Assembly: GCA_945871905.1 (NCBI GenBank)
Contig: CAMBXL010000003.1
Location: 1-64,000 of the forward strand
Direction of reading: 5' to 3'
Source of the DNA: Chitinophaga pinensis
GTDB lineage: Bacteria; Bacteroidota; Bacteroidia; NS11-12g; UBA955
DNA length: 64,000 nucleotides
Shown here: positions 9,617 through 47,734 of the stretch, in pieces
How positions within the stretch are numbered: position 1 is the stretch's first letter
Layout of the letters: every line of letters starts with the position of its first letter
The notes under the pieces: generated by a model
The model's database searches: none
What the model saw: only the letters and a program-made list of their open reading frames with translations
Told to the model about the DNA's origin: nothing
Program-made: the position numbers and the translations under genes

Positions 9617-9818
9617 ACGCCTCCGCACAGTTTACGCTTAAACCCTCAAAAACCACCGCATTGAATGGCACGTTAGAAACCCAAGAAAGATTTTTGAATT
9701 TAAAAAACATTAACGATTAATCATTAACAAATAACTATTAACCCTTCAACCATTTAAACCCCTTAAACAATCACGCTAAACGGAGTGAAACATCTAAACA
9801 AATAAACACCTAAACAAC

Positions 9819-16517: not shown

Positions 16518-16778
16518 TTATTGGTTAAATTGTTGCATTGTTAAATGTTGCACTGTTAAATTGTTTAGGGTAGAGACGTGATGCATGGCGTTTGTTAGAA
16601 ATCTATTTCCCGACGATTGAAACCGTGGGCTATGTGATTTAAAAAAATAAAAATCTAAAATCCTCATTCCGAGAATTCTGAAAAAAGATATCACTCCTTT
16701 TCCCTCTATTGAAACCGTAAGAGATAGTTTTAGAAAATCAAAAAAACCTAATCCCCTATTCCTAATTCCTAATTCCTC
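16518..16778. repeat. intergenic repeat-derived region
   Basis: No gene. It contains a run of 'ttgttaaa/ttgcattg' words (16520-16565); a half copy of a palindromic motif (GTAGAGACGTGATGCATGGCG, from about 16570); two copies of attgaaaccgt (16616-16626 and 16708-16718) with similar flanks; and a cctaattcctaattcc tract (16747-16778) that ends at the ABC-transporter stop codon. Confidence 0.6.
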
Positions 16779-44255: not shown

Positions 44256-44997
44256 ATTTATTCACTTTATGGAGCTTGTGCATTGTAAAAGAAGAAGCAA
44301 AGCCAACTAAATAACCACAAATAACATCACTCGGGTAATGCTTACCAGCTTTTACCCTAAGAATTGCCTCCACAGCTGGTAATGCAAAAGCACCAGTCCA
44401 CAATGCATAATTAGGTTTGTTAGGTGCATTATAAGTTTGGTATGCATAAGCAAAACTAAAACTCAGTGAAGAAACTGTTGTAGTATGTGCTGAAAAAAAT
44501 GACATTCTACTGTCAGACTTCATTTTTTTAGACATTTCTACCTCCGGATTATAAACAAGAGGCCGAGGTCTAAGTGTGAGTTTGAAGCTGTTTGATAATG
44601 CTTGAGATAACAATAAACTTTGAAAAGCGACACCAGCAATAGGAAAAACATTTTCTTTGCTATTTTTATCAAAACAGAAATACAAAAACATCAATCCACT
44701 TCCTACGGCTACTCCATCGCTGGTTCGTGCAATTGTGGGATTCCATTGATAAGTTGCAATTCTATCAAATCGATTGACATTATTTCTATTAAGACTCAAA
44801 ATATAATTTTCTGAAAGTGGTTTAACTTGATTTTGTAAATAAAAAGAAGACCCTAAAAAACCTGCAGATATTGCCCCTAAGTATGGATCAAATTTTTTGT
44901 ATGAATATTTATATTGAGCAGCAATATTTGTCGAACATAAAAAAAAGCCATATATTAATAATGGCTTTAGTTTATAAATTTTTTTTAAGAAACCCAT
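44254..44997 (-). CDS. PAP2 superfamily phosphatase
   Basis: Membrane-associated acid phosphatase-like protein of 247 residues, probably acting on lipid phosphates in the envelope. Signal peptide ends NIAAQ. The three PAP2 motifs are complete: KLTLRPRP (139-146), SFFSAHT (166-172) with His171, and RVKAGKHYPSD (214-224) with His220 and Asp224. The start overlaps the iscA stop by one base, so it is the last gene of the isc transcript. Confidence 0.92.
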   Translation of the reverse strand: MGFLKKIYKLKPLLIYGFFLCSTNIAAQYKYSYKKFDPYLGAISAGFLGSSFYLQNQVKPLSENYILSLNRNNVNRFDRIATYQWNPTIARTSDGVAVGSGLMFLYFCFDKNSKENVFPIAGVAFQSLLLSQALSNSFKLTLRPRPLVYNPEVEMSKKMKSDSRMSFFSAHTTTVSSLSFSFAYAYQTYNAPNKPNYALWTGAFALPAVEAILRVKAGKHYPSDVICGYLVGFASSFTMHKLHKVNK

Positions 44998-45332
44998 TAT
45001 ACCGCAAAACTTTCACCACAGCCACAGGTTCTTTTGGCATTAGGATTGATAAAATTAAATCCTTTACCATTTAATCCATCCGTAAAATCTAATTCTGTTC
45101 CTGCCAAATACAAGTAACTTTTTAAATCACAAACTACTTTAATTGAATTTGTAATAAATTCTTGGTCTCCATCTTTTGGCTCGTTGTCAAAATCTAAATC
45201 ATAACTTAAACCACTGCAACCGCCCCCTTTTACCGAAACCCTTACAAAATAATCTGGACCCATATTTTCTTGACTCATCAACTGTTTAACTTTGCCAAGT
45301 GCTCTATCTGTTATTGTTATATCTGCTGACAT
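44997..45332 (-). CDS. iscA: HesB/IscA-type iron-sulfur assembly protein
   Basis: A-type Fe-S carrier of 111 residues with the three cluster Cys: Cys39 (GGGCSGLSYDLDF), Cys103 and Cys105 (RTCGCGESF). YFVRVSVKGGG and NPNAKRTCGCG are family-typical. It lies 264 bases downstream of iscU on the same strand; the gap holds the CCTAA tract and no gene. It overlaps the PAP2 gene by one base. Confidence 0.94.
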   Translation of the reverse strand: MSADITITDRALGKVKQLMSQENMGPDYFVRVSVKGGGCSGLSYDLDFDNEPKDGDQEFITNSIKVVCDLKSYLYLAGTELDFTDGLNGKGFNFINPNAKRTCGCGESFAV

Positions 45333-45548
45333 AATTTATTTTATATTTTATAATTTTTGATTTTATGTGTTACTAATGCTTCGCGGTGGATTTTTTATAA
45401 TTTTAATGGTTCTTCTTAATTGATATTACAATTTTCATTCCATATCTATCAGATTGATTTTAATGTCATCAATTAATCTTTTCGTCCCACAACATTGGTA
45501 ACATTAAGGAAAATTCCTAACCCACTTGCTGAGCCTAGTCAAGGCTAA

Positions 45549-45595
45549 CCCCTAAACCCTAATTCCTAACTCCTAACTCCTAATTCCTAACTCCT
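45549..45595. repeat. CCTAA-type tandem tract next to the iscU stop
   Basis: About six 7-8 base units (cctaactc / cctaattc). On the minus strand it reads as TTAGGA-like, G-rich units beginning one base after the iscU stop codon. A related tract (16747-16778) abuts the ABC-transporter stop in the same orientation. Confidence 0.75.
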
Positions 45596-45596
45596 A

Positions 45597-46013
45597 TTAA
45601 TAGTGTTTTTTATCGTCCTCTATCGGTGCTAAACCATTTTTAACTCTGTAATCATTTATGGCAGACTTTATGGCATCTTCAGCCAATACACTGCAATGGA
45701 TTTTTACAGGAGGTAACGCCAATTCTTCAACAATATCCATGTTGTCGATTTTCAGTGCATCATCAACTGATTTACCTTTGAGCCATTCTGTTGCCAATGA
45801 AGAAGAGGCAATAGCGCTACCGCAACCAAATGTTTTGAATTTTGCATCTTTGATAATGCCTGTTACTTCGTCTACTTCTATTTGCAAACGCATAACATCA
45901 CCACACTCTGGTGCACCTACCAAACCCGTTCCAACTTCTTTTTTGTTTTTATCTAACGTTCCAATGTTTCTTGGATTGTTATAATGATCGATTACTTTTT
46001 CTGAATAAGCCAT
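45597..46013 (-). CDS. iscU: Fe-S cluster assembly scaffold
   Basis: Scaffold on which the cysteine desulfurase builds clusters. 138 residues: VIDHYNNPRNIGTLD, the three ligands Cys37 (GAPECGDVM), Cys64 (FGCGSAIASSS) and Cys107 (KIHCSVLAEDA), and the chaperone-recognition motif LPPVK. Typical IscU. It is separated from iscS by the four-helix-bundle gene. Confidence 0.97.
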   Translation of the reverse strand: MAYSEKVIDHYNNPRNIGTLDKNKKEVGTGLVGAPECGDVMRLQIEVDEVTGIIKDAKFKTFGCGSAIASSSLATEWLKGKSVDDALKIDNMDIVEELALPPVKIHCSVLAEDAIKSAINDYRVKNGLAPIEDDKKHY

Positions 46014-46020
46014 GATTTAT

Positions 46021-46518
46021 TTTTGATTTATGATTTTTGATTTATGATTTTAATAAATTAAAGTGATTAAATATTTATGATTTTTAATACCTTTATAATT
46101 TTTTATATTTTTAGATTTTCTTGAGTAGTGCTTTTGGTTTTTGACATTATCATTAATATTTCGTTGGTTTCTTTATGCAATTTTTCAAAGTCACTTTCGT
46201 TAATTTTTTTTGTTTCGTATAACAATTCCAACCAATATAATGCTTCATCTGCTTCTTCTATTACGACTGATATTTTTGATATGAAATCTGCTTTTGATTT
46301 ACCTCTTAAAGCTGAACGATAATTTGCACCTACATAAGTTACAGACTTGGTTAATTGCTTAACCAATACACTGGTAACATTTGAAAACTGAACATTCTCT
46401 AATACAGCTAATGCATTAATGGCCAATTGCTTGGTTCGGCTTTTCAAATTATCCGCAAATTCACTGTACATCTTTTATTATTTTAAAATCAAAATTCAAA
46501 AATCACAAAATCAAAAAT
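46021..46518. mobile_element. candidate inverted-repeat-flanked four-helix-bundle cassette
   Basis: The four-helix gene is bordered by similar AT-rich words in opposite orientation: ttttgatttatgatttttga at the left (46021-46050) and aaaatcaaaattcaaaaatc at the right (46485-46518), the complement of which reads ttttgattttgtgatttttg. The unit interrupts iscS-iscU. No transposase is present. Low-complexity convergence is an alternative. Confidence 0.4.
46103..46471 (-). CDS. four-helix-bundle protein (23S rRNA intervening-sequence family)
   Basis: A 122-residue all-helical protein; FADNLKSRTKQLAINALAVLENV, KQLTKSVTYVGANYRSALRGKSKADFISKISVVIEEADEALYWLELL and KINESDFEKLHKETNEILMIM match the family first described in 23S rRNA intervening sequences. 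Members occur widely in Bacteroidota between unrelated genes. The function is unknown; a role in binding nucleic acid has been suggested. It lies between iscS and iscU. Confidence 0.88.
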   Translation of the reverse strand: MYSEFADNLKSRTKQLAINALAVLENVQFSNVTSVLVKQLTKSVTYVGANYRSALRGKSKADFISKISVVIEEADEALYWLELLYETKKINESDFEKLHKETNEILMIMSKTKSTTQENLKI

Positions 46519-46519
46519 A

Positions 46520-47734
46520 TCAATGCTCCGCCCATTGAATAGATTTCAAATCAATCCCTTCCTTGAACATTTCCCACAACGGACTCATATCTCTCAACTT
46601 AATTACTGCTTCTTTTACGTGGTTTATCGCATATTCTACTTCCTCGTCGGTGGTAAACCTACTTAATCCAAATCGCAATGAAGAATGCGCTAACTCATCG
46701 TCTAAACCCAATGCTTTTAACACATAACTTGGTTCCAAACTAGCACTTGTACATGCTGAACCTGATGAAACGGCTATATTTTTAACACCCATTATCAATC
46801 CTTCTCCTTCAACATATTTGAATGACATATTGCTCACATGCGGCAATCTATGTTCTTTACTTCCATTGATGTATGACTCTTCAAGCACCAATAATTCTTT
46901 TTCTAAACGGTCTCTCATTTTAATGATACGTTCGGTGTCCACTTGCATTTCATTTTTACACAATTCGCAAGCTTTACCAAAGCCAACTATACCTGGTACA
47001 TTTAGCGTACCACTTCTCATTCCTCTTTCGTGACCACCGCCATCCATTTGAGCTGTAACCTTAACTCTTGGATTTTTTCTTCTTACATACAAGGCACCAA
47101 CTCCTTTAGGACCATACATTTTGTGACCTGTAAAACTCAACAAATCGATATTATCAGCAATTACGTCAACCATAATTTTACCAACTGCTTGGGTGGCATC
47201 GGTGTGAAACAAAACCCCTTTGGAATGACACAATGCCCCAATTTCTTTCATCGGTTGAATAACTCCAATTTCGTTATTGGCGTACATGATACTAACCAAA
47301 ATTGTATTGGGTTGTAACGCATCCTCAACTTGCTTTACTGTAATTAAACCTTGTTCGTTGGTTTTTAAGTAGGTAACCTTAGCTCCTAATTTTTCAATGT
47401 GTTTACAAGCATCCAATACCGCTTTGTGTTCAGTTTCAACGGTAATGATATGTTGACCCTTAGCCGCATACATTTCGAACACGCCTTTAATAGCTAAGTT
47501 GTTAGATTCTGTAGCACCACTGGTAAAAATAATTTCTTTTTCATCCGCATTAATAAGGGCAGCCACTTGCTCTCTTGCGTAGTCAACAGCCTCTTCAGCT
47601 TTCCATCCAAATGGATGATTTCTGCTCGCTGCATTTCCGAATATTTCGGTAAAATATGGCATCATAGCTTCCAAAACCCTAGGATCCATGGGAGTGGTAG
47701 CATTATTATCTAGGTAGATAGGAAGTTTTAACAT
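46520..47734 (-). CDS. iscS: cysteine desulfurase
   Basis: PLP enzyme that takes sulfur from cysteine for Fe-S clusters and tRNA thiolation. 404 residues: [53 protein letters not shown] Lys205 ([11 protein letters not shown]), and the catalytic Cys328 in [14 protein letters not shown], on the flexible loop typical of IscS (group I). First gene of the isc cluster; TATTTTTG promoter box 28 bases upstream. Confidence 0.97.

Follow-up and report, generated by a model that had tools for sequence, protein, structure and literature searches.

In the window, by which we mean the whole 64,000-nt stretch of DNA that was analysed, four genes form a co-directional run on the minus strand: iscS, an ORF coding for a cysteine desulfurase (46520-47734; TIGR02006, 653.8 bits), a gene for a 122-aa protein of the 23S_rRNA_IVP or four helix bundle type (46103-46471; hereafter IVP gene), iscU for the Fe-S scaffold (45597-46013; TIGR01999, 217.2 bits) and, as the next gene in the run, one for an iscA-type Fe-S assembly protein (44997-45332; TIGR00049, 119.9 bits), with the three isc matches over their cut-offs. 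The claim of the preliminary description that an IVP gene parts iscS from iscU was borne out by the ORFs and the HMM names (IscS, IscU and 23S_rRNA_IVP).

The IVP gene lies in a cassette with iscS on its 5′ side and iscU on its 3′ side, the spacers being 48 nt between iscS and the IVP gene and 89 nt between the IVP gene and iscU. Inverted-repeat search, tandem-repeat search and RNA folding recognised in each spacer an array with a 7-nt period. The upstream (U) arm (46474-46519, minus strand), reading TATTTTTGATTTTGTGATTTTTGAATTTTGATTTT... on the coding strand, begins immediately after the iscS stop codon; the downstream (D) arm (46017-46062, minus strand) is complementary to it and terminates shortly before the iscU start codon. 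Another array, of the CTAACTC type (GAGTTAG on the coding strand), was found by tandem-repeat search at 45545-45596 on the minus strand, in the widened iscU–iscA gap, where it is not accompanied by an IVP gene. The genome (G000) comprises 2.5 Mb in 31 contigs and holds, besides the isc copy, two more IVP copies, between sdhA and sdhB and behind the aconitase gene (names by HMM).

IVP Protein

The 122-aa protein matched PF05635 with 50.4 bits (cut-off 33.8) and TIGR02436 with 64 bits (cut-off 24), and an AlphaFold2 monomer model made from ten related sequences revealed a four-helix bundle at a pLDDT of 87.9; both the profiles and the fold place the protein in the PF05635/TIGR02436 family. Foldseek analysis returned 2rld (BT_0352, S23 family) as the best match (TMq 0.74-0.80, E 5e-6 to 5e-5), conforming with a sequence match to the same protein (E 2.4e-23), followed by 2gsc (Xcc0516; TMq 0.77-0.82, E 0.002-0.01) and, weakly, by Avd as 4dwl (TMq 0.73-0.76, E 0.03-0.14), with 8ub7 (Avd) also matched. 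Xcc0516 has been reported to be a homopentamer (PMC4990558). According to the available text of two reports, the function of S23/IVP proteins has been obscure ever since 23S rRNA intervening sequences (IVSs) were first described, and the way in which the IVSs spread is likewise unsettled (PMC4990558, PMC11270868).

RVT_1 reverse transcriptases were matched in only 6 of the 59 genomes searched, G000 not being among them, whereas IVP genes were present in 46 of the 59. An Avd-like helper that needs a reverse transcriptase in the same genome was rejected on these counts. The cassette does not require such an enzyme in its own genome; a transient reverse-transcriptase partner is conceivable.

Pairing of the Arms at the isc Locus

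As a measure of pairing, the upstream flank was scored locally against the reverse complement of the downstream flank, and arms were called at a score of at least 20. The isc flanks scored 33 when inverted and 14 in direct orientation, the mean of dinucleotide shuffles being 16.2 (z 6.4). The inverted repeat (46020-46062 and 46474-46516) measured 43 nt with 79% complementarity, an overlapping alternative pairing reached 88% over 24 nt, and tandem-repeat search revealed a 7-bp period in both flanks. For the RNA duplex of the flanks, −31.2 kcal/mol was calculated, compared with −16.1 ± 2.9 kcal/mol after shuffling, and none of the 200 shuffles was as low. When the 512 nt spanning the iscS stop to the iscU start were folded in silico, the downstream arm paired with 37 of the 51 upstream nucleotides, in a predicted stem that starts with the iscS stop codon and ends just ahead of the iscU ATG. 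A known RNA family in the arms was rejected, as Rfam had no match between 44500 and 48500 at E values up to 1.

The inverted-repeat flanks of the preliminary description were thus confirmed, by the length and complementarity of the repeat as well as by both kinds of shuffle, and the likeness of the flanks survived the control for composition. The flank words given there proved roughly right, while the pairing extends slightly beyond the proposed borders of 46021-46050 and 46485-46518.

Occurrence of Arms across IVP Loci

In G000 and its relatives (59 genomes together), 134 IVP matches were found and 116 used; the 18 that were omitted comprised nine short fragments over the cut-off and nine matches below it, and two rows below the HMM cut-off (G028:C15 and G025:C1) were retained. 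Comparison of the two 150-nt flanks gave an inverted score of at least 20 for 59 of the 116 loci and a direct score of that size for 12, compared with 1.9% of cross-locus pairs; 57 loci remained below 20 and 48 below 18. In the control set of 326 other genes, taken from 20 stretches of 20 kb and from the window, 8 reached 20, as did 4 of the 107 control genes with gaps of at least 25 nt on both sides. An inverted score of at least 25 was found for 22 of the 116 IVP loci and for none of the 326 control genes. Four loci were later dropped because of internal stops or a length below 90 aa, upon which 56 of 112 had arms (Fisher p 1.7e-30 versus the controls). For 38 loci, the own downstream flank ranked top among all 116. 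Taking one random member per cluster, a mean of 35 of 76 loci reached 20 at 70% identity and 14.6 of 36 at 50% identity; the excess of arms is not due to near-copies.

Among the loci below the threshold, some appear patterned by eye, such as that of G004 between sdhA and sdhB, where TATAGGG faces CCCTAAC at a score of 11, and some plainly have no arm pattern, for instance the aconitase copies. In one control stretch (L155, 11648-11995), a 115-aa ORF was noticed between near-identical direct flanks (score 137 of 150), which contain the palindrome CCCACGGTTTCAACCGTGGG.

A wider sample of named loci with isc-type IVPs contained 80 loci, two of which were omitted (flanks below 70 nt); of the remaining 78, 22 reached 20 inverted and 7 direct. 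In a phylum-wide draw the score was reached by 9 of 30 loci inverted and 3 direct. The cross pairs for these two samples reached it in 2.4%. Three single-contig genomes gave 7 of 15, 4 of 11 and 2 of 7 (13 of 33 inverted, 0 of 33 direct), three fragments among the ten IVP matches of G181 having been omitted; therefore, draft assembly is not the cause of the arms. The wider samples are weaker than the 59 of 116 above, but controls and cross pairs remain at 2-3%. Outside Bacteroidota proper, as judged from the titles, 6 of 20 loci reached 20 inverted and 0 of 20 direct, the six being from Neorhodopirellula pilleata (score 41), four Verrucomicrobia and one ‘Proteobacteria’ MAG.

Seven-Nucleotide Words

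The 7-nt period was found to be general: the excess of identity within the arms was 0.17, 0.14 and 0.10 at lags of 7, 14 and 21, respectively, whereas 171 control intergenic stretches gave values of about −0.01 to −0.02. The 33.6 kb of IVP flanks contained 41 strict 7-nt arrays and the 464 kb of other DNA contained 6, all intergenic and one of them the D arm of the window itself, corresponding to an about hundredfold higher density at the IVP flanks. On the coding strand, the upstream arm contained more G than C at 55 of 65 loci. Most loci carry an individual word that matches within the locus and differs even inside one genome; G+C-rich words, for example in G008, behave alike.

In the window, TRF revealed further 7-bp arrays, CCTAATT and CATTAAC, at 16747-16777 and 9708-9754, and locus L004 (G000:C2:13888-16900) holds many degenerate 7-nt words of the CTTCTGA type and a longer repeated unit, ‘CAGTGGGTGGTCGCCACC...’.

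Sharing of words was compared for the 65 loci with arms. Of 37 IVP pairs with normalised bits of 0.5-0.8 at non-homologous sites, 17 had a common word that was oriented alike and none had one in the opposite orientation, compared with about 1% of distant IVP pairs; the sole pair above 0.8 had no common word at the threshold (15). Recurrence of a word is chiefly seen in IVPs that are closely related. For pairs at 0.4 or above, the mean word score was 12.6, against at most 10.6 across 2000 permutations. A GGTTATT-type word recurs at the sdhA–sdhB, carA–eno and pntAA–pntAB junctions, and a TTTGAAA-type word is present in genome G044 both between scoA and scoB and ahead of a nucleotide-sugar dehydrogenase gene. 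Within the three single-contig genomes, recent copies with the same word were not seen, except for one pair of identical IVP loci in G248 (G248:C1, 1766 and 3724450; L324 and L326), which lie near both contig ends and probably represent an assembly overlap and not a new copy.

At orthologous junctions with IVPs less than 85% identical, 40 of 46 pairs showed a better fit between the arms of one locus than between arms of the two loci (mean fit 18.7 versus 12.3), implying that the two arms change in concert. Selection for pairing could account for this, as could slippage combined with template switching between the arms; template switching could keep complementary arms matched without selection.

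Placement in Operons

For 103 loci both neighbours were known, and the IVP gene was located in sense orientation between co-directional genes in 73 of them and antisense in 7; of the control genes, 158 of 326 were flanked by two co-directional neighbours. At 44 loci with clear arms, the outer arm ends had median distances of 1.5 nt to the upstream stop codon and 5.5 nt to the start codon that follows, both ends lying within −20 to +25 nt at only 17 of the 44.

Junctions were counted by IVP cluster over 253 loci, of which three had been entered twice (L285, L293 and L301). The sdhA–sdhB junction accounted for 15 loci from four IVP clusters, one of them outside Bacteroidota, pntAA–pntAB for three loci from three clusters and carA–eno for four loci from two clusters; iscS–iscU and the thiolase–acyl-CoA dehydrogenase junction had two clusters each. 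The sdhA–sdhB cluster of seven loci is from Verrucomicrobia and one ‘Proteobacteria’ MAG, with arms of at least 20 at three of the seven. It consists of isc-type IVPs (L227, L232 and L259, also L223, L234, L236 and L239), and in this non-Bacteroidota cluster the D arm extends into the sdhB start codon (CGTAAATCGTAAATG). A tree had been tried as a test for single entry, giving one change for the six sdh rows, and was discarded, as these were compared with the isc rows only while 103 others were ignored; in the drawn tree, the six fall into two separate starred clades, and the junction-by-cluster count was used instead.

Empty and Occupied Junctions

The iscU survey of the 59 genomes gave 55 matches, of which 30 loci were read; one had no iscS in reach, leaving 29 junctions. 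The IVP gene was absent from 26 of these, with gaps of 13 to 181 nt, and present in three (G000, G003 and G028). In G001, the iscS of which is nearest to that of G000 among these genomes (90.8%), the junction is empty of an IVP gene yet has a 7-nt array with a different word. Between sdhA and sdhB, 6 of 30 junctions were occupied and 24 empty, array remnants persisting at some empty ones, most clearly in G007 and G009. G006 is occupied here and G011 empty, with the sdhA and sdhB ends 93.8% and 95.8% identical between the two; their gap sequences are too different for placing the insertion point. A target-site duplication was not recognised at the isc or sdh junctions, where occupied and empty gaps have strongly diverged.

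The sdhA–sdhB copy of G000 has inverted flanks (score 20, z 5.2) with its own word, whereas the aconitase copy (L002) scored 14 (z 1.0) and has no paired arms; it has a local upstream hairpin instead. The hairpin behind aconitase (L002, 1390-1890; L129) is self-complementary, consists of 7-nt words and is similar in G000 and G018. The idea of one genome-wide flanking word was dropped, as TGATTTTTGATTT occurs five times in G000 (twice for the reversed-pattern control), with none of the five at the other two IVP genes.

The preliminary description had suggested a mobile cassette and proposed searching for an empty iscS–iscU site in relatives and for other four-helix genes with the same flanking words. 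The former was found; of the latter, the inverted flanks recur at the sdh copy, but the word is a different one. Two outcomes were named there as speaking against insertion, namely that all relatives keep the gene while other copies lack such flanks, or that the flank likeness vanishes once AT composition is controlled for. The gene is missing from most junctions, and neither outcome was obtained, because the likeness survives the composition control and the sdh copy has inverted flanks. The proposed mobility is strengthened by the empty sites, the several IVP clusters per junction and the tracking of the IVP by the word; on the other hand, the cassette has no enzyme inside, and in the genomes compared no identical recent copies were present at different sites.

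Discussion

By its protein, the isc cassette belongs to a known family; by its architecture, it is IVS-like, yet outside the location that defines an IVS. In the 23S rRNA IVS of Coxiella burnetii, of about 0.4-0.5 kb, the complementary termini form a 28-bp stem, which has the S23p ORF in its loop and is cut by RNase III; tandem heptamers are found directly upstream of the S23p start (PMC4990558). The isc cassette resembles it in the protein family, the ORF looped by complementary termini, the similar size and the heptamer repeats. A stem around the S23p ORF is common to both, but the isc cassette lies between protein genes of an operon and not within an rRNA gene, and each of its arms is an array that repeats a locus-specific 7-nt word. 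Excision by RNase III is known for the Coxiella IVS and would apply to the isc cassette by analogy. With transposons and MITEs, the isc case has in common the occupied and empty homologous sites, but not terminal inverted repeats conserved across copies. The Avd protein of diversity-generating retroelements (PMC10053308) has the same fold class, as reflected by the weak 4dwl match, but unlike in these retroelements, an RVT_1 match is missing from G000.

IVP genes within CRISPR-cas loci, for example between cmr3 and cmr2, were presented in 2013 as having a CRISPR-associated function (PMC3936711). They are likewise situated between genes that belong together, and the available text of that report does not describe flanking arms; by analogy, the fold-out pattern may offer an alternative reading of these genes. 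TAACTGA heptamers of Beggiatoaceae, Cyanobacteria and some Bacteroidetes form intergenic direct arrays, mostly just upstream of starts (PMC4679880). They share with the isc arms the intergenic 7-nt array, but are direct repeats of one fixed word, and term counts in the main text of that report gave no occurrence of S23, four helix or intervening. Among the openly licensed PMC papers searched, none was found to describe operon IVP genes as flanked by complementary 7-nt arms, which is weak evidence of absence.

The explanation that we favour, with somewhat better than even confidence for the whole, is a fold-out cassette, in which an IVP gene and complementary arms of 7-nt words have repeatedly entered operon junctions. 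A long stem, built from two complementary arrays of the locus-specific word, would carry the IVP gene in its loop, and the cassette would be placed sense-wise in the gap between two operon genes. In the mRNA, the arms are predicted to pair and to juxtapose the upstream stop and the downstream start codon, and the operon would tolerate the insert because the paired arms bring these codons together. Cleavage of the stem by RNase III is probable, by analogy with the 23S rRNA IVS. The IVP, a helical bundle with the Avd/S23 fold that is putatively oligomeric, probably recognises the arms of its own locus, as the tracking of IVP relatedness by the word suggests. IVP and arms are probably a single mobile, selfish unit that enters operon junctions repeatedly, in view of the empty sites, the patchy occurrence, the repeated entry into the same junctions and the shared words at unrelated ones. 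The best reading of the isc cassette, by analogy, is that of an mRNA counterpart of the 23S rRNA IVS. The strongest tie between the two is provided by the heptamers of the classical IVS, which suggest a single kind of element with an rRNA and an operon form. Against the fold-out cassette stand the 57 of 116 loci below the arm threshold, the lower proportions in the wider samples, the aconitase copy with no paired arms, the target-site duplication that was looked for and not recognised, the lack of recent same-word copies in the single-contig genomes and the arrays that have no IVP gene, which represent either losses or arrays not tied to the IVP.

Other explanations of the IVP gene and its arms were weighed against this cassette. 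That the flanks resemble each other by chance is next to impossible: they are AT-rich and shuffles alone average 16.2, but the z of 6.4, the 0 of 200 duplex shuffles, the 8 of 326 control genes and the G+C-rich words elsewhere (G008) contradict it, and shuffles, cross-locus pairs and control genes together refute it for the isc locus. A MITE-like element that is moved as DNA by a transposase acting in trans, and of which the arms would be the terminal inverted repeats, would fit the short body between inverted ends and the empty sites; it is very improbable in view of the missing common end sequence, the words that differ among copies even in one genome, the strong sense bias and the lack of a recognised target duplication.

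Two remaining accounts are unlikely to a lesser degree. The arms may not be parts of an element at all, if 7-nt arrays arise by slippage in loose intergenic DNA and become complementary through template switching during replication, with IVP genes just happening to lie in gaps of this kind. Both slippage and the correction of quasipalindromes are established phenomena, and arrays without an IVP gene occur in the window and in G001. Heptamer arrays have also been reported from other bacteria (PMC4679880). We nevertheless regard this account as improbable, given the about hundredfold density of strict arrays at IVP flanks relative to the 464 kb of other DNA, the 4 of 107 control genes with gaps of at least 25 nt on both sides that reach 20, the tracking of IVP relatedness by the word at unrelated sites and the presence of arms in several phyla. 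Alternatively, IVP and stem could be a domesticated regulator for local control of the operon, inherited with it and not mobile, in which the stem would determine how much IscS is made relative to IscU, or how the two are coupled, and the IVP would bind the stem as feedback. The absence from 26 of 29 iscS–iscU and 24 of 30 sdhA–sdhB junctions tells against such a regulator, as do unrelated IVP clusters at one junction and related IVPs at unrelated junctions, although the sense bias (73 versus 7), the coincidence of arm ends with stop and start codons and the core-operon hosts, often with the gene between enzyme subunits (sdhA–sdhB, the two PntA halves, scoA–scoB), speak for it; it keeps a small share of plausibility.

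Beyond the fold-out cassette at single junctions lies a broader reading, which we consider conceivable but doubtful: a class of mobile elements consisting only of a helical-bundle protein and mutually complementary arms of 7-nt words, which would enter transcribed junctions in sense orientation. On this still tentative reading, the elements would have no fixed ends and no nuclease, transposase or reverse transcriptase of their own, and each lineage would read its own word. If it were true, the classical 23S rRNA IVS would be one special case. If IVP genes bring fold-out arms into operons, rRNA would not be their main home, and the arms would be a readable address tied to the protein, making binding and movement testable. 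This would also explain why ‘four helix bundle protein’ genes are met with among core metabolic genes, and perhaps among cas genes, in whose functions they would take no part. With many IVP relatives framed in the same manner by other words, the old question of how the family spreads would become testable.

The neighbouring iscU–iscA gap (45333-45596) measures 264 nt in G000, compared with 174 nt in G001, 145 nt in G016 and −1 to 86 nt at the other 27 of 30 loci. The gap contains 7-nt arrays and no IVP gene both in G000 and in G001, and these arrays are perhaps relics of a lost cassette.
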